Source: an uncultured Cellvibrionales bacterium (GTDB lineage Bacteria; Pseudomonadota; Gammaproteobacteria; Pseudomonadales; Cellvibrionaceae). From it: a DNA stretch of 64,000 nucleotides. Below, piece by piece: positions 1 through 59,743 of the stretch. The translations under genes and the position numbers were made by a program. Positions within the stretch are counted from its first letter, which is position 1; each line of letters opens with the position of its first letter. The DNA lies in assembly GCA_913050115.1 (NCBI GenBank), contig CAJWZU010000005.1, positions 1-64,000 of the forward strand, given 5' to 3'. The notes below the pieces were generated by a model. The model was given only the letters and a program-made list of their open reading frames with translations. It searched no databases and was not told the origin of the DNA.

Positions 1-76
1 ATTGATTAAATCTTGTTCTCTGATTGTGATTATTTGATACGGTCATGCTCGCTTAAGATATTTTGTGTGATATTAA

Positions 77-1027
77 TCACTTGTCAATAGCTATTAAATC
101 CAATACCAGTCCGAATATAGGTTTAGGGAGCAATACCGGTGGCCACTCTTCTTCATAATCTTCAACCGATGAATCAATTTCATCAATGCACGATGTCACC
201 ATATCTGTAATGATTTTAATTTCTTCTAAACCTAAAGGGGCTCCGTGACAGTTGTGAGTACCCGATTTATTCGGCGAACCAAAACCAATAACCGTTTTAC
301 AACAAATTAGTGTCGGCTTGGCAGTTTCAGCTTTAGCTGCTGCAATTGCATCAGCAATAGCTTTAGAGTCATGTCCATCTACGTCGGCTATTACATGCCA
401 ACCATAGGCTTCAAAACGAGCTGGCGTGTCATCCGTAAACCAGCCCTCAACATGCCCATCAATTGAAATACCGTTGTCATCCCAAAACGCAACTAATTTA
501 CCTAAGCCCAATGTGCCAGCTAAAGAACATACTTCGTGAGAAATACCTTCCATCAAACATCCATCGCCCAAAAAGCAATAAGTGAAATGGTCAACTACAT
601 CAAAATCAGGCTGATTAAACTGTGCAGCTAAGGTTTTTTCGGCAATCGCCATGCCCACTGCATTACTAACACCCTGTCCCAAAGGTCCAGTGGTAGTTTC
701 AACACCAGGTGCATAACCATATTCTGGGTGACCAGGAGTTTTAGAATGCAATTGACGGAAATTTCTTAACTCTTCAATCGGTAATGCATAACCTGTCAAA
801 TGTAATAGAGAGTAAATCAACATAGATCCATGGCCGTTAGATAATACAAATCTATCTCTATTAGCCCAATCAGGATTACTTGGATTATGTTGCAGATTAT
901 CTGCCCATAACACTTGCGCAATGTCAGCCATACCCATAGGTGCACCAGGGTGACCTGAGTTAGCTTGTTGAACAGCATCCATGCTAAGGGCGCGAATGGC
1001 GTTGGCGAGTTCGGTGCGTTCTGACAT
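77..1027 (-). pseudogene. tkt: Truncated transketolase, N-terminal (PP) domain only
   Basis: Residues 1-270 match the thiamine-diphosphate-binding N-terminal domain of full-length bacterial transketolase: His26 ([10 protein letters not shown]), His66 (SNGHGSM), GPLGQG at 114-119, GDG at 154-156 with Asn185 (the ThDP/metal motif), and His261 ([10 protein letters not shown]). A full enzyme has about 665 residues. Here similarity stops abruptly after residue 270, and a 46-residue tail of no recognised family follows to a TGA stop. The pyrimidine-binding and C-terminal domains are absent, so the fragment should not be catalytic alone. No frameshift restores the missing part in the 217 bases left of the break. 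The gene is clearly AT-richer than its neighbours (60-base lines counted at 30-43% GC, against 50% in metK). A tkt gene divergent from a metK unit is the usual place in pseudomonads. It could also be a split-transketolase subunit, but the sequence is of the full-length type. Confidence 0.8.
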
Positions 1028-1205
1028 GGGCTTGGATTCCTAGCTAACTTCAATATGCTTAGTCGGTGTTAAGCGACAAAATAAATGCCGCTATTGTCCC
1101 CCAGAGCTTTATCGGCGTAAAGCGATGACGCCGCTAGATCTGATCATTTAAGGCTTTAAATGGCATTTTCGAACAGTGCTTATGATAATTTGCGCTGCCA
1201 GCGAC

Positions 1206-1245
1206 CTATATCAAAATATTTTTATATTAAAACATTTTGATATAG
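1206..1245. promoter_or_regulatory. Perfect 12-base inverted repeat, probable operator of the methionine-cycle operon
   Basis: CTATATCAAAAT at 1206-1217 is repeated exactly in inverse orientation at 1234-1245, with a 16-base AT-rich centre. The site ends 27 bases before the regulator's start codon. ArsR-family repressors bind such palindromes over promoters, and regulators of this type beside metK/ahcY are known to control methionine-cycle genes (SahR group). Autoregulation of the whole operon from this site is inferred. Confidence 0.6.
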
Positions 1246-1272
1246 GGTGTTCACACTGCTAAACTCTCGCCC

Positions 1273-2244
1273 ATGTTAAACCCCAATCCATCATCCACCG
1301 TACCTCTGGCACAGCAGTTAAAAGCCGCTGCCGACCCTTTGCGACTCGATATTTTGCGTGCAATGGCGTGCGGCTCATTTGGGGTGTTGGAGCTGTGCCG
1401 TCTGTTTGGCATTAAACAGTCAGGCATGAGCCACCACTTAAAAGTGTTGGCCGCAGCGGGCTGGATTAGTTCTCGCCGCGAGGGTAATTCAATTTTTTAT
1501 CGCCGCGCACACCTAAGTACCGATAATTATCAGGCGCCGCTACAACAGCAACTGTTTGATACTTTAGATGCCCAACTTTTAAGCGACCCAGTGCAGGACG
1601 GCATCAAAGTCATTCAAGCTGAACGCAGCGCCCAGTCGCTGCGCTTTTTTAGTGACAATGCCGATAAATTTCGCGAGCAACAAGATTTAATCGCCAGTTA
1701 CCCCGTTTACGCGGATCAAGTGCTGGAATTATTGACCGCGACACTGCTGCCGCAACGACAGAGCGTGCTGGAAGTGGGGCCGGGAGTCGGCGAGTTTTTA
1801 ACACCGCTGGCAGCGCAGTTTGAACAGGTCATAGCGCTCGACAATTCCAGCGCTATGTTAGAACGAGCGCAGGCGACCGCCAGCAAGCTGGCGAATATCG
1901 AATTTATCGCAGGTGATACCACCACTTTGAGTAAACGCAATATCACTGCCGATTGCATAGTGGTAAATATGGTACTGCACCATACGCCCAATCCACGGCA
2001 GGTTTTCAGCGAATTAAGTACCGCTTTAAATTGCGGCGGCGCGCTGCTAATCACCGATCTGTGTCGCCATGACCAAAGCTGGGTGCGCGAGACTTGCGGC
2101 GATTTATGGCAAGGTTTTGAACCGAGTGATTTTAGTAGCTGGGCATCAGATGCCGGGCTGCGCGAAGGCCAAGCCGTGTATTTTGCACTGCGCAATGGTT
2201 TTCAAATTCAGCTCAGACAGTTTTTCAAACACAAACAGCATTAA
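1273..2244 (+). CDS. ArsR-family regulator fused to a SAM-dependent methyltransferase domain
   Basis: This 323-residue protein has an N-terminal winged helix of the ArsR type (about residues 8-85; recognition-helix region [13 protein letters not shown] at 47-59). A class I methyltransferase fold follows from about residue 140, with the SAM-binding motif LEVGPGVGE at 166-174. No metal-binding cysteine pair of the classical ArsR type stands out. The gene starts the metK-ahcY-metF operon, 41 bases before metK, so the C-terminal domain probably senses SAM or S-adenosylhomocysteine rather than methylating a substrate. Similar fused proteins sit next to metK in Pseudomonas. There is no strong ribosome binding site before the ATG; expression from a short leader just after the palindrome is possible. 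Confidence 0.85.
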
Positions 2245-2285
2245 AGAATAGAACATTACAATATTTAATATTTAGGAACCAAGCT

Positions 2286-3494
2286 ATGTCCGACTATTCA
2301 GTATTTACCTCGGAGTCTGTCTCCGAGGGTCATCCCGACAAACTCGCCGATCAGATTTCCGACGCCGTACTCGATGCCATTATTGCTCGCGATAAGCACG
2401 CGCGCGTAGCGGTAGAAACACTGGTGAAAACCGGTATGGCTATTGTTGCCGGCGAGCTAACGACCTCTTGCTACGTCGATTTAGAAAATATCATTCGCGG
2501 CGTTATAACCGATATTGGTTATAACAGCAGCGATGTCGGATTCGATGGCGCCACCTGCGCAGTACTGAACGCCATCGGCAAACAGTCTGTCGATATCAAT
2601 CAGGGGGTTGATCGCGCCAAGCCAGAAGACCAAGGCGCCGGCGATCAGGGTTTAATGTTTGGCTATGCCACTAACGAAACCCCGAGTTTAATGCCCGCAC
2701 CGGTGTATTACTCACACCGTTTAGTAGAACGGCAAGCCCAGCTGCGCAAGGACAAAGTGCTGCCGTGGTTACGTCCAGACGCCAAGAGCCAGGTCACTCT
2801 ACGCTATGAAGACGGCGTGCCAGTGGCCATTGATGCGGTAGTGCTATCGACTCAGCACGATCCTGACATTTCTCTCGAAGACCTGCGCACGGCCGTACTG
2901 GAAAACATTATCAAGCATGTGTTGCCGGCCGAGCTGTTGCATGAGGGCACTCAGTACCACATAAACCCAACCGGTAACTTTGTTATCGGCGGCCCAGTAG
3001 GCGACTGCGGTTTAACTGGTCGCAAGATTATTGTCGATACCTATGGCGGCATGGCTCGCCATGGCGGTGGCGCTTTTTCAGGCAAAGACCCATCCAAAGT
3101 AGATCGTTCAGCCGCCTATGCCGGTCGCTATGTGGCCAAAAACATTGTTGCTGCAAAATTGGCTGACCGCTGTGAAGTACAGATTAGCTACGCTATCGGC
3201 GTGGCCGAGCCGACCTCTATTTCAGTCAATACTTTTGGCACCGGCAAAGTAAGCGATGAAAAGTTAATCACGGCCATTCGCGAAGTCTTTGATCTGCGCC
3301 CTTACGCCATCACTAAGATGCTCGACTTGCTACACCCTATGTACCAGCTTACCGCTGCTTACGGCCACTTCGGTCGCGAGCCGTTTGAACACAGCTACAC
3401 CCACATTGAAAACGGCGAACAAAAAACCGAAACCTTTACCGCTTTTACCTGGGAAAAGACTGACAAAATCGAAGAATTAAAAGCGGCTATTTAA
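2286..3494 (+). CDS. metK: S-adenosylmethionine synthetase
   Basis: The enzyme makes SAM from methionine and ATP in the cytoplasm. At 402 residues it has the family's normal length. Visible signatures are GHPDK at 15-19, the first family motif GAGDQG at 117-122, and the glycine-rich phosphate loop GGGAFSGKD at 260-268. An AGGA-type ribosome binding site precedes the ATG. It is the second gene of the methyl-cycle operon. The product is used by methyltransferases, and the by-product S-adenosylhomocysteine is recycled by the next gene, ahcY. The operator before the upstream regulator probably controls it. Confidence 0.97.
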
Positions 3495-3515
3495 TTTTTA
3501 GCCAGTATTTATTTC

Positions 3516-3534
3516 GGCGCTGGACTCAGGCGCC
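3516..3534 (+). other. Short intercistronic hairpin between metK and ahcY
   Basis: GGCGC at 3516-3520 pairs with GCGCC at 3530-3534 around a 9-base loop. No T-run follows, so it is not a standard intrinsic terminator. It may stabilise or punctuate the mRNA. Confidence 0.35.
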
Positions 3535-3554
3535 ACAAAATCTAGGACACTATT

Positions 3555-4967
3555 ATGACTATTAATGCCAACGGATTTACCGACTTTAAAGTTGCCGCCG
3601 CCAGCCAAGAAGAATTCAACCAACTGGCCACTTGGGGCCGCAAGGAAATTGACATCGCCGAGGGCGAGATGCCGGCACTAATGGCGCTGCGTCGTAAATA
3701 TAAGGCCCAACAGCCACTGGCCGCAGCCAAGGTTATGGGTTGTATTCACATGACCATTCAGACCGCGGTACTGATCGAAACTTTAGTCGACTTAGGCGCA
3801 GAAGTACGCTGGTCTTCTTGCAATATTTTCTCCACTCAAGATCATGCTGCTGCCGCTGTAGCGGCCGCTGGTGTACCGGTATTTGCTTGGAAAGGCGAAA
3901 CCGAAGAAGAGTTTTTATGGTGCATCGAGCAGACCATTCGCGCCGAACTAGGCAGCGATAAAGTTTGGGACGCCAACATCATTCTCGACGATGGCGGCGA
4001 CTTGACCAATATGGTGCATGAAGATTTTCCAGCGATGCTCGACAGCATTCATGGCATTAGTGAAGAGACCACTACTGGCGTGCACCGTCTGTTAGAAATG
4101 ATGGAAAAAAACGAGCTTAAAGTTCCTGCCATCAATGTTAATGACGCAGTGACTAAATCCAAAAACGATAACAAGTACGGCTGCCGCCATAGCTTGAACG
4201 ACGCCATCAAGCGCGGCACCGACCATCTGCTGTCGGGCAAGAAAGCCCTAGTTATAGGTTACGGCGATGTCGGTAAAGGTTCTGCCGCGTCTCTGCGCCA
4301 GGAAGGCATGATTGTTAAAGTTTCAGAGATTGATCCTATCTGCGCGATGCAGGCCTGCATGGACGGCTTTGAAGTAGTATCGCCGTATAATGAAGGCATC
4401 AACACAGGCAAAGCCGCCGACATCAACACTATCGTACTCGGTACTACCGATTTAATCGTGACCACTACCGGCAACGCCAATGTCTGCGACAGCGCTATGC
4501 TGCAGACATTGAAAAACGCAGCGGTAGTATGCAACATCGGCCACTTCGATAACGAAATCGATACCGTCTTTATGCGCGATAACTGGGAGTGGGATGAAAT
4601 TAAGCCGCAGGTTCACAAAATCTATCGCGACAAGTCTACCAATAACCATTTAATCCTGTTGTCCGAGGGCCGCCTAGTAAATCTCGGTAATGCCACCGGT
4701 CATCCATCGCGTATTATGGATGGCTCTTTTGCCAACCAAGTACTCGCGCAGATGTATTTGTTCGAAAAGAAATTTGCCGATTTGCCTGCCAGTGAAAAAG
4801 CCGAAGGTATCTACCTTAAGATTCTGCCGAAAAAACTCGACGAAGAAGTAGCCCAGGACATGGTTGAAGGTTTTGGGGGTGTGATCACCAAACTGACCAA
4901 GACTCAAGCCGACTACATCAATGTGCCTGTTGAAGGTCCGTTTAAGCCGGAAGCCTACAAGTACTAA
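3555..4967 (+). CDS. ahcY: S-adenosylhomocysteine hydrolase (adenosylhomocysteinase)
   Basis: It splits S-adenosylhomocysteine into adenosine and homocysteine, relieving product inhibition of methyltransferases and feeding homocysteine back to methionine. The 470-residue protein is of the long bacterial type. The NAD-binding loop GYGDVGKG is at 235-242. The substrate-domain segment [19 protein letters not shown] lies just before it, and the conserved C-terminal PFKPEAYKY closes the chain. An AGGA site lies 9 bases before the ATG. The gene is cotranscribed with metK and metF. The spacer before it is too short and lacks the core of an S-adenosylhomocysteine riboswitch. Confidence 0.97.
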
Positions 4968-4980
4968 TCTGTAAGTGAAT

Positions 4981-5008
4981 GGCCGAGTTGACCCTGATTA
5001 ACTCGGCC
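4981..5008 (+). other. Strong intercistronic hairpin between ahcY and metF
   Basis: GGCCGAGTT (4981-4989) and AACTCGGCC (5000-5008) form a perfect 9-bp stem with a 10-base loop. No T-run follows. It may act as an RNA-processing or stability element, or attenuate expression of metF and rsmE. Confidence 0.45.
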
Positions 5009-5024
5009 GTCAGCGAGATATATT

Positions 5025-5873
5025 ATGTCTGAAGATATTCGTTTAAGTTTCGAGTTTTTCCCTGCCAAAACAGATGTTGGCCGGCAAAAACTTGATAAAG
5101 TTCGCGACGAACTTGCACTGTTAAAACCCGAGTTTTATTCGGTGACTTACGGTGCTGGTGGCTCGACCCGAGACAATACTAAGAAGATTATCAGCGACTA
5201 CAGCAGTGCCGGCTTTGCCGTGGCACCGCACCTATCTTTTGGTGGCGACGACATCGACACCATTAAACAATTAATTAGCGAGTACAAAGCTGCCGGTGTC
5301 AATCGTATTGTGGCTCTACGCGGTGACATGCCCTCGGGTATGGGCGGTTCATCACAGCTGGTTTACGCCAATGAGCTAGTGGCGTTTATCCGAGAGCATT
5401 TCGGCAATCACTTTCATTTAGAAGTGGCGGCCTACCCTGAGATTCATCCAGAAGCAAAAACCTTTAGCGATGACATTCGCTACCTCAAAGGTAAGTTTGA
5501 TGCCGGTGCCAACAGCGCCATCACGCAATACTTTTTTAACCCAGATGCCTACTTCTACTTTATGGAACAGTGCCAGAAAGCCGGTATTACACAGCCCATT
5601 TACCCCGGTATTATGCCGATTCTGAACTACCAGAATTTGGCCCGTTTTAGCAGCAGTTGCGGCGCTGAAATTCCGCGCTGGTTGCGAAAAGCGCTGGAGA
5701 ATTACGCCGATGATGAAGTAAGTTTGCGTGCCTTTGGGGTCGATATGATCAGCGAGTTGAGCGCAACCCTACTCGACAATGGCGCCCCAGGACTGCATTT
5801 TTACACCATGAATCAGACCGATCCAACCGCGACTATTGTGCGCAATCTAGGTTTAGATCCCGCCGCAGGTTAA
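5025..5873 (+). CDS. metF: 5,10-methylenetetrahydrofolate reductase
   Basis: This flavoenzyme produces 5-methyltetrahydrofolate, the methyl donor for methionine synthesis from homocysteine. The 282-residue TIM-barrel protein carries SFEFFPAKT near the N terminus, with the catalytic glutamate at position 10, the YGAGGSTRD loop at 42-50, and LRGD at 98-101. Length and motifs agree with the family. It is the fourth gene of the methyl-cycle operon; its stop codon is one base before the rsmE start, so translation is probably coupled. Confidence 0.96.
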   Translation: MSEDIRLSFEFFPAKTDVGRQKLDKVRDELALLKPEFYSVTYGAGGSTRDNTKKIISDYSSAGFAVAPHLSFGGDDIDTIKQLISEYKAAGVNRIVALRGDMPSGMGGSSQLVYANELVAFIREHFGNHFHLEVAAYPEIHPEAKTFSDDIRYLKGKFDAGANSAITQYFFNPDAYFYFMEQCQKAGITQPIYPGIMPILNYQNLARFSSSCGAEIPRWLRKALENYADDEVSLRAFGVDMISELSATLLDNGAPGLHFYTMNQTDPTATIVRNLGLDPAAG

Positions 5874-5874
5874 T

Positions 5875-6600
5875 ATGAGAATTCCACGTATTTTCACCGA
5901 GCAAGGCCTTGTTGAAGGCGCTGTTGTGGCACTCGAAGAGGGTCCCTCCCGGCATATTGGCAAGGTCTTGCGCATGCAAGTGGGGCGCGAACTGATCTTG
6001 TTCAATGGTCAAGGCGGTGAATACCACGCCAGTATTAGCCACGTTGGCAAGAAAGTAATCGAAGTTGAAATACGTGAATTCTCAGTAGGCAGTAGGCAGT
6101 CACCGCTAAATATCGAGCTGGCGATTGGCTTGTCTAAGGGCGACCGTTTCGATTTAGTATTGCAAAAAGCCACAGAACTCGGTGTCAGTCACATTGTGCC
6201 GCTATTAAGCCAGCGCTCAGAAGTGAAGCTAAACCCAGAGCGACTGACAAAGAAATTAGCCAGCTGGCGACAGATAATCGTGAGTGCCTGCGAGCAGTGC
6301 CAGTTGAATATTGTGCCTACATTAAGCGAACCGCTAAAACTTGGGCAGTGGCTAAGTGAATGCGACAGCGACTTAAAACTGGTGCTGCATCATCGCTCGG
6401 ACGGCACTCTGGCCGATATACCAGAGCCCAAGAGTTTAAGCTTATTGATTGGCCCAGAAGGCGGCTTGAATGACGAAGAAATTAAGTGCGCCCAAAGTCA
6501 CGATTTCAAAGCCCTCACATTGGGACCACGAGTCCTGCGCACAGAGACAGCACCACTAGCGGCTATTAGCCTTGCACAATATTTGTGGGGCGACTTTTAG
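5875..6600 (+). CDS. rsmE: 16S rRNA m3U1498 methyltransferase
   Basis: RsmE methylates N3 of U1498 in 16S rRNA with SAM. The 241-residue protein has an N-terminal PUA-like RNA-binding part and a C-terminal trefoil-knot (SPOUT) part. The knot motifs are visible: GPEGGL at 193-198 and LGPRVLRTETA at 216-226. The start ATG lies one base after the metF stop. Its position at the end of an operon that makes and recycles SAM is functionally sensible. A weak hairpin lies just after the stop codon. Confidence 0.93.
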   Translation: MRIPRIFTEQGLVEGAVVALEEGPSRHIGKVLRMQVGRELILFNGQGGEYHASISHVGKKVIEVEIREFSVGSRQSPLNIELAIGLSKGDRFDLVLQKATELGVSHIVPLLSQRSEVKLNPERLTKKLASWRQIIVSACEQCQLNIVPTLSEPLKLGQWLSECDSDLKLVLHHRSDGTLADIPEPKSLSLLIGPEGGLNDEEIKCAQSHDFKALTLGPRVLRTETAPLAAISLAQYLWGDF

Positions 6601-58162: not shown

Positions 58163-59743
58163 ATGAGATCATTAACTTTTAATCAGCTGCAATTACGCAT
58201 ACTTTTAATACTATTCCTATTTTTTATAAGTGCTTTAGTTGGCTACAGATATTTTATAGAATTACCTAAATTAGAACGCAGCATTGCATCTATTGCAGAA
58301 GGTGAGCTCGACATTTTAACATTTAGTATAGAAAACATGCTGAAGAATGCCTCACTAACAAATTACGACTATGCGGTATGGACATCAACTTATGATTTCA
58401 TGGTCAGTCAAAATCAAAGTTATGTGGATGAATATTTAGTTGACGATACTTTTGTTAGCTTATCTATAGATGGCATGTTTTTCATCAATAAAGATTTAGA
58501 GATTGTTTTTGCTAAGGGATTTCATAGCAAAATCGAAAAACCGCTGGAATTTTCTTTCTATGATTTCAAAAAGCACCCTGAAAACTTAAGTATCTTACCG
58601 GCCCCAGAAAAAGGACGTGGATCGTCTAGTAAAAAAGGTTTTTTAAGCACAAAAAATGGTCCAGCGATTTACAGCGTAAACCAAGTTAGAACCTCTGATT
58701 CGGGCGGTGAACATCGAGGATTTCTGATTTCAGTCAAGCTTATTGAAAACATCTTCACTGAAGACTTGAGTAAATACACGTCCACTAACATTACATTTTT
58801 TCCCGAACATGAAAACATTGATTTTAAAACGATAAAAGTTTGGAATAAAAAAAAGAATCTATTTAGCGTACAGCCCTACACAGATATATTACTCGAGGAC
58901 ATGAATGGTCGCCCTGTTGCAGTAATTAAAATGGAACATAGCGTAGGCTATATGCCTAATTTACTTAATGATAAAATACTGATTTTCACTCTATTGATTA
59001 TTTTCATTTTTTATATTTTTTATCGATTCATATCAACAACTATTATTTTTCCAGTAAACAAATTATCAAGAGACATTGAGTCTCGGCACTCAAGCAATAA
59101 ACATACTAAATTAAGTGAAAAATACACTATAAAAGAGCTCATTACCGTTTCTAAAAACGTCAATAAACTAATGCATATAGTACAAACACAAAATGAATTA
59201 CTGGCTAAGCAGGCCAATACAGACCAACTAACCCAGGTAATGAATCGCTACGGTTTAGAGACTGAGTTAAATAAGTACGAAAATCAATGCATCCGATTTA
59301 ACGTCGGTTTTATCGCTATAATGTGTGATATAGATAATTTTAAAATCTACAATGATTCTTTTGGGCATATACAAGGTGATACTGCTTTATACAAAGTAGC
59401 ACAATCATTAAAACAACACTGTAAACGACCTACCGACATACTTGCTCGCTTTGGCGGCGAAGAATTTATGCTTTTGTTTAGTGAAATGCCAGAAAAATGT
59501 TTACGCAAAAAAATGCAAGCTATTATCAGCTCAATAGAAAAACTGACTATACCTCATTCAAATTCACCAAAGGCTGCACACGTAACAATTAGCTTAGGCG
59601 CTACTATTGTAAGACCATCTGATGTAGTTGATTTCTCACTACCTATAAATGAAATAATTAAAACAGCCGACAATGCTCTTTATCAGGCTAAAGATTTTGG
59701 CCGTAATCGTTTTATTATAAATAATTTCTCATCAAAAAATTAA
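58163..59743 (+). CDS. Membrane-bound diguanylate cyclase with periplasmic sensor domain
   Basis: The 526-residue protein makes cyclic-di-GMP. It has a first membrane helix at about 12-28, a periplasmic sensor region (about 40-265) resembling CHASE4-type domains, a second helix near 270-291, a linker, and a GGDEF domain with active-site GGEEF at 431-435 and the inhibitory-site motif RPTD at 422-425, so product inhibition is expected. Its base composition is markedly AT-rich compared with mscS, rho and lpxL nearby, suggesting acquisition. It stands alone in a gene-poor region. Likely targets are biofilm or pilus functions, but this is inferred. Confidence 0.9.
   Translation: MRSLTFNQLQLRILLILFLFFISALVGYRYFIELPKLERSIASIAEGELDILTFSIENMLKNASLTNYDYAVWTSTYDFMVSQNQSYVDEYLVDDTFVSLSIDGMFFINKDLEIVFAKGFHSKIEKPLEFSFYDFKKHPENLSILPAPEKGRGSSSKKGFLSTKNGPAIYSVNQVRTSDSGGEHRGFLISVKLIENIFTEDLSKYTSTNITFFPEHENIDFKTIKVWNKKKNLFSVQPYTDILLEDMNGRPVAVIKMEHSVGYMPNLLNDKILIFTLLIIFIFYIFYRFISTTIIFPVNKLSRDIESRHSSNKHTKLSEKYTIKELITVSKNVNKLMHIVQTQNELLAKQANTDQLTQVMNRYGLETELNKYENQCIRFNVGFIAIMCDIDNFKIYNDSFGHIQGDTALYKVAQSLKQHCKRPTDILARFGGEEFMLLFSEMPEKCLRKKMQAIISSIEKLTIPHSNSPKAAHVTISLGATIVRPSDVVDFSLPINEIIKTADNALYQAKDFGRNRFIINNFSSKN

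Follow-up and report, generated by a model that had tools for sequence, protein, structure and literature searches.

The left end of this DNA poses the question of how a transketolase gene (tkt) in the neighborhood of metK could keep its ThDP-binding domain and then run into an unrelated tail in a frame that stays open, and whether such a frame represents a new kind of protein, a horizontal transfer, or an artefact. The window, by which we mean the whole stretch of 64,000 nucleotides analysed, corresponds to bases 1–64000 of contig C5 (73,875 bases) in a draft assembly of 100 contigs and 2.72 Mb, with an estimated completeness of 97.85% and contamination of 0.29%; and the tkt frame, present in the list of open reading frames, occupies positions 77–1027 of the minus strand and encodes 316 aa.

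Window base 1 is also base 1 of C5, nothing lying further left in the assembly, and the contig stops 76 bases past the tkt stop codon; those unassigned bases (1–76, no strand) had no match below E 1 in a search of the own assembly. The affected part is the last ~1 kb of the 73.9-kb contig. On the opposite side lie two native neighbors: a gene for an ArsR-type helix-turn-helix and SAM-methyltransferase protein, recognized with Pfam (1273–2244, plus strand) and divergent from tkt, and metK (2286–3494, plus strand), an open frame named from its translation, with matches beside tkt in relatives. Just upstream of the former gene, a near-palindrome of 42 bases (1205–1246) is 90% identical to its own reverse complement and looks like a putative operator of that regulator, which would be SahR-like. 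The first-pass annotation had entertained the idea that a mobile element broke tkt, which idea found no support among the frames of window 1–6000, where no mobile-element gene was recognized upon inspection by eye and, for two of them, a scan with Pfam.

As to what the frame encodes, residues 5–273 match Pfam Transketolase_N (PF00456) over profile positions 3–271 of 334 with 483 bits, in agreement with the initial description of a half-gene whose ThDP-binding domain is intact to about residue 270. Besides PF00456, Pfam found two related thiamine-domain families only; of the parts expected in a functional transketolase, the ThDP-binding domain is thus present, whereas the pyrimidine-binding and C-terminal domains are absent from the chain, past whose stop codon 76 bases of contig remain. 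The gene had also been called AT-rich, which description fits its larger part: codons 18–272 have a GC3 of 0.278, whereas the 38 non-overlapping window ORFs of at least 150 aa, the tkt frame included, average 0.520 (sd 0.068), and among them that frame ranks second lowest. Codons 1–17, for which the description fails, are GC-rich (GC 0.569, GC3 0.647). We do not take this richness as proof of a native origin, 29 of those bases being identical in Paraglaciecola; and because most of codons 1–17 are identical there, the position of the border cannot be read from composition alone. The lowest GC3 of the 38 (0.285) belongs to a distant gene at 58163–59743, of 33% GC, which encodes a CHASE4-GGDEF protein and is perhaps a real transfer.

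The slice from 215 to 1012 (minus strand), which comprises the ThDP-binding domain (PF00456), has its closest counterparts in Paraglaciecola. In the collection of named genomes, which may lack records close to the window's own genome and of whose 589 matches the 80 best were considered, three uncultured Paraglaciecola MAGs (L055, L056, and L057) were the top three matches, with 91–92% protein identity and a DNA identity of 82.5–87%. To L055 the DNA identity amounts to 87.1% over 798 bases (window 1012–215), the alignment ending on both sides, and residues 2–278 are 92% identical to the start of a full-length Paraglaciecola tkt. In a tree of 57 rows built on window residues 46–270, the C5 piece grouped with the same three MAGs with a support of 99/92, in a group that contains no same-family row. 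Two other Paraglaciecola records (L058 and L059) fell outside that group. In the same vein, the window reads AQVLWAD as do the three MAGs, where 24 of the 26 same-family copies read AEVLWND. Elsewhere in the tree, the full-length tkt of a MAG named Cellvibrionales bacterium (L084) was placed beside Aliiglaciecola and Paraglaciecola with weak support (84/76), a placement for which transfer or mis-binning is possible.

Over codons 18–268, 80 codons differ from L055 by synonymous changes only and 13 by changes of the amino acid, which proportion shows that the slice stems from a gene subject to normal selection and not from an old pseudogene. The distribution of the differences over the three codon positions (14, 2, and 86) is that of a functional gene, and the domain probably owes its intactness to having been cut from the working gene of another organism.

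At the 5′ side, tkt codons 1–5 (1013–1027, minus strand) are continuous with the arsR/metK flank and, in the comparison of N-termini, unlike Paraglaciecola, similarity to L055 starting at 1012 and neither these codons nor the flank beyond having any match in that genus. The following 29 bases (984–1012, minus strand) recur without a mismatch in the three Paraglaciecola MAGs; the same comparison, over 109 loci, revealed 20 of the 29 in the same-family genome L019. The 5′ junction therefore falls within 984–1012 (codons 6–15) or at the 5′ edge of that stretch. The protein encoded at the junction, 14 residues long, is nearly invariant in the same-family and Paraglaciecola groups, with the AQVLWAD/AEVLWND difference some 20 codons past it, so that an assembler could cross between genomes at this point. 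An exact run of 29 bases is, by our estimate, not rare in an alignment of 87% identity, and is consistent with, without being proof of, a k-mer join. Among the three joins discussed here, a candidate shared stretch was identified at this one only. The 3′ junction lies near window 200–230, at about codon 268. The end of C5 accordingly combines segments of different phylogenetic origin with abrupt borders, as a real transfer would also do.

Beyond that second junction the frame continues as a tail of about 46–49 codons and a stop (77–225, minus strand), which we sought in genomes, phages, plasmids, viral contigs, Pfam, and PHROGs. The last two gave no match at E ≤ 1, in keeping with the earlier remark that the tail belongs to no recognized family. 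In 369 genomes of the class the tail matched its own place alone, at 1e-27, so that a query of such length can be found. A source in Paraglaciecola or its family had to be discarded: in 50 genomes, chosen from the best 80 of 589 tkt loci, there were only four weak matches (E 0.16–0.77), and in the 295 genomes that belong to the same family as G058, a set without a positive control, there were none at E ≤ 0.01. The rest of the own genome was likewise rejected as a source, its matches all lying above E 1, as was a phage or plasmid, for which tblastn returned nothing at E ≤ 1. Viral contigs yielded 20 pattern stretches, none of which was confirmed. The DNA of the tail had zero matches in plasmids and short matches in 30 phage records, of which the 20 listed had E values of 0.2–0.7 and none covered more than 17% of the query.

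Searches of the assembly for a second, complete tkt found no complete copy. The sole other transketolase that they found is on contig C1, in a frame of 687 aa at 1566–3629 (minus strand) of locus L035 (C1:93500–98675). From about codon 44 this frame is an ordinary transketolase, with the pyrimidine-binding and C-terminal domains matched by Pfam; the first ~43 codons are missing, and an AceE-like N-terminus of 64 residues is fused in frame in their stead, the fusion point lying at about C1:96937. A gap-like frame and the start of a pgk-like frame, both named from their translations, come after the tkt, and a divergent Lrp/AsnC gene adjoins the fusion frame. Two further, weak PF00456 matches fell in a frame of 887 aa on C15, which carries a pyruvate dehydrogenase E1 middle domain. 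The AceE-like residues resemble, at 28–51% identity, the start of pyruvate-dehydrogenase-E1-like frames, mostly of 880–950 aa, and had a match at E ≤ 0.01 to such a start in 41 of 48 genomes, counting the own one; at E ≤ 1e-10 the segment matched nothing beyond itself in 369 class genomes, nor did the Lrp protein in 274 at the strict limit of E ≤ 1e-55. Neither was found beside tkt at E ≤ 1e-6 in any of 109 loci, of which the 29 from relatives reach only about 1.5 kb upstream. The C1 frame is probably a second chimeric join. In the tree the C1 copy leaves an unresolved fork together with same-family and other rows, which position does not fix its origin; its composition (GC 0.536) and its neighbors, for their part, lead us to infer that it is the native gene.

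The relatives indicate what the native locus should look like. In 56 of 57 relatives (G000 apart) the best match lay in an open frame of 663–760 aa, the sole one without a match being G016, which is 68% complete. Among 26 same-family tkt loci, taken with about 1.5 kb of flank to either side of the match unless the contig ended sooner, the arsR-methyltransferase gene of the window was beside tkt in 10, gap in 10, and both in two; in these two, L026 and L028, a single stretch of ~3.8 kb contains the arsR-methyltransferase gene, metK, a full-length tkt, and gap. In view of these shared neighbors, the end of C5 and the half-gene of C1 look as if they were the two sides of a single locus, and we infer that the two partial tkt genes derive from one native locus; provided that the C1 copy is native, the continuation missing from C5 is found on another contig, as tkt, gap, and the start of pgk.

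We therefore assign a probability of about 80% to the C5 frame being a contig-end artefact, in which the native tkt is broken and false joins have been made at both contig ends. The organism would possess one ordinary full-length tkt between the metK/arsR side (C5) and gap-pgk (C1), and the assembly would have broken inside that gene. On C5, the first 5 to 15 native codons would have been extended with the tkt of a co-occurring, Paraglaciecola-like organism, which slice would then give way, at about codon 268, to a third sequence before the contig stops; on C1, the part of the gene that starts at about codon 44 would have been extended backwards into the AceE-like N-terminus and the Lrp gene. 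The joins would stem from the assembly, through a shared k-mer, or from DNA amplification, and not from a living cell; judging by its fragmentation, the draft is probably a metagenome or single-cell assembly. Such a chimera accounts for the position at a contig end and for the mosaic, as well as for there being two partial genes and no complete tkt in an assembly that is 98% complete. Against it speak the low estimated contamination and the need for two false joins within about 80–115 bases of one gene, which would be a coincidence unless a coverage gap or amplification caused both. As regards other contig starts, the first 1000 bases have a GC below 42% in C5 and in five of 20 other contigs (C2–C22 without C5), those five (C9, C13, C17, C19, and C22; L160, L164, L168, L170, and L173, respectively) each being below their own bases 1001–5000; these starts speak neither for nor against a chimera.

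If the mosaic were instead the work of evolution, a Paraglaciecola-like fragment would have disrupted the native tkt through horizontal transfer, and a separate rearrangement would have fused the remainder to the AceE-like start. This we regard as unlikely: although the assembly does contain the mosaic, residues 46–270 do group with Paraglaciecola, and the completeness (97.85%) and contamination (0.29%) estimates speak in its favor, the cell would be left without any complete transketolase that our searches could find, two rearrangements of one gene would be needed, no transferred flank is seen, and the mosaic sits exactly at a contig end. Of the first-pass proposal that a foreign tkt fragment had recombined into this site, the foreign source of the sequence thus stands, Paraglaciecola-like as it is, whereas the contig end and the abrupt borders leave a recombination event in the living genome unsupported.

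Other readings take the pieces to be at work as proteins. Were the C5 N-domain protein and the C1 fusion to act together as a genuine two-piece transketolase, the openness of both frames and the supply by C5 of the N-terminal residues missing from C1 would fall into place; the pieces, however, overlap by ~225 residues with no division at a domain border, the C5 piece comes from another lineage according to the tree, and an ordinary full-length frame is the rule in the relatives, all of which renders such an enzyme very improbable. Equally hard to credit is the bolder version in which the cell has no intact tkt and a Paraglaciecola-derived N-domain with a new tail, jointly with the AceE-N/transketolase fusion, replaces it; if true, it would be surprising for a cell to have given up its ordinary transketolase for two mosaic pieces. 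Split transketolases with a separate N-subunit exist in some other bacteria and archaea, and a product of 316 aa that breaks off close to the end of Transketolase_N would suit one. The contig ends too soon after the stop for a partner gene with the other domains to be seen, and the only other tkt found is the nearly full-length fused frame on C1; but the 92% identity over residues 2–278 is to a Paraglaciecola tkt of full length, and the short-frame homologues among relatives, in G047, G043, and G027 (286–319 aa), are only 31–35% identical, so that we give this possibility very little credence.

Nothing in the evidence points to a new system, and the C5 frame is most likely not a new kind of protein. 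The contig-end artefact that we favor carries a caution, in that two contigs of one draft end in plausible frames that mimic gene fusions or horizontal transfers, which frames a cataloguer of transferred or fused central-metabolism genes would score as two events when, most likely, a single native tkt was broken. Compared with known transketolases (tkt, PF00456), the C5 frame shares the ThDP-binding domain; in contrast to the C1 copy, it has an unrelated tail in place of the pyrimidine-binding and C-terminal domains; and the Paraglaciecola genes of L055, L056, and L057, which lie beside metK and gap, extend past the slice by more than 300 codons. The GUNC paper (PMC8201837) describes misassembly into chimeric contigs as a source of error in MAGs, relatively rare in comparison with mis-binning. 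Like the chimeric contigs of metagenome assemblies described there, C5 would unite fragments of different sources in one contig, with the difference that its last ~1 kb only would be affected.
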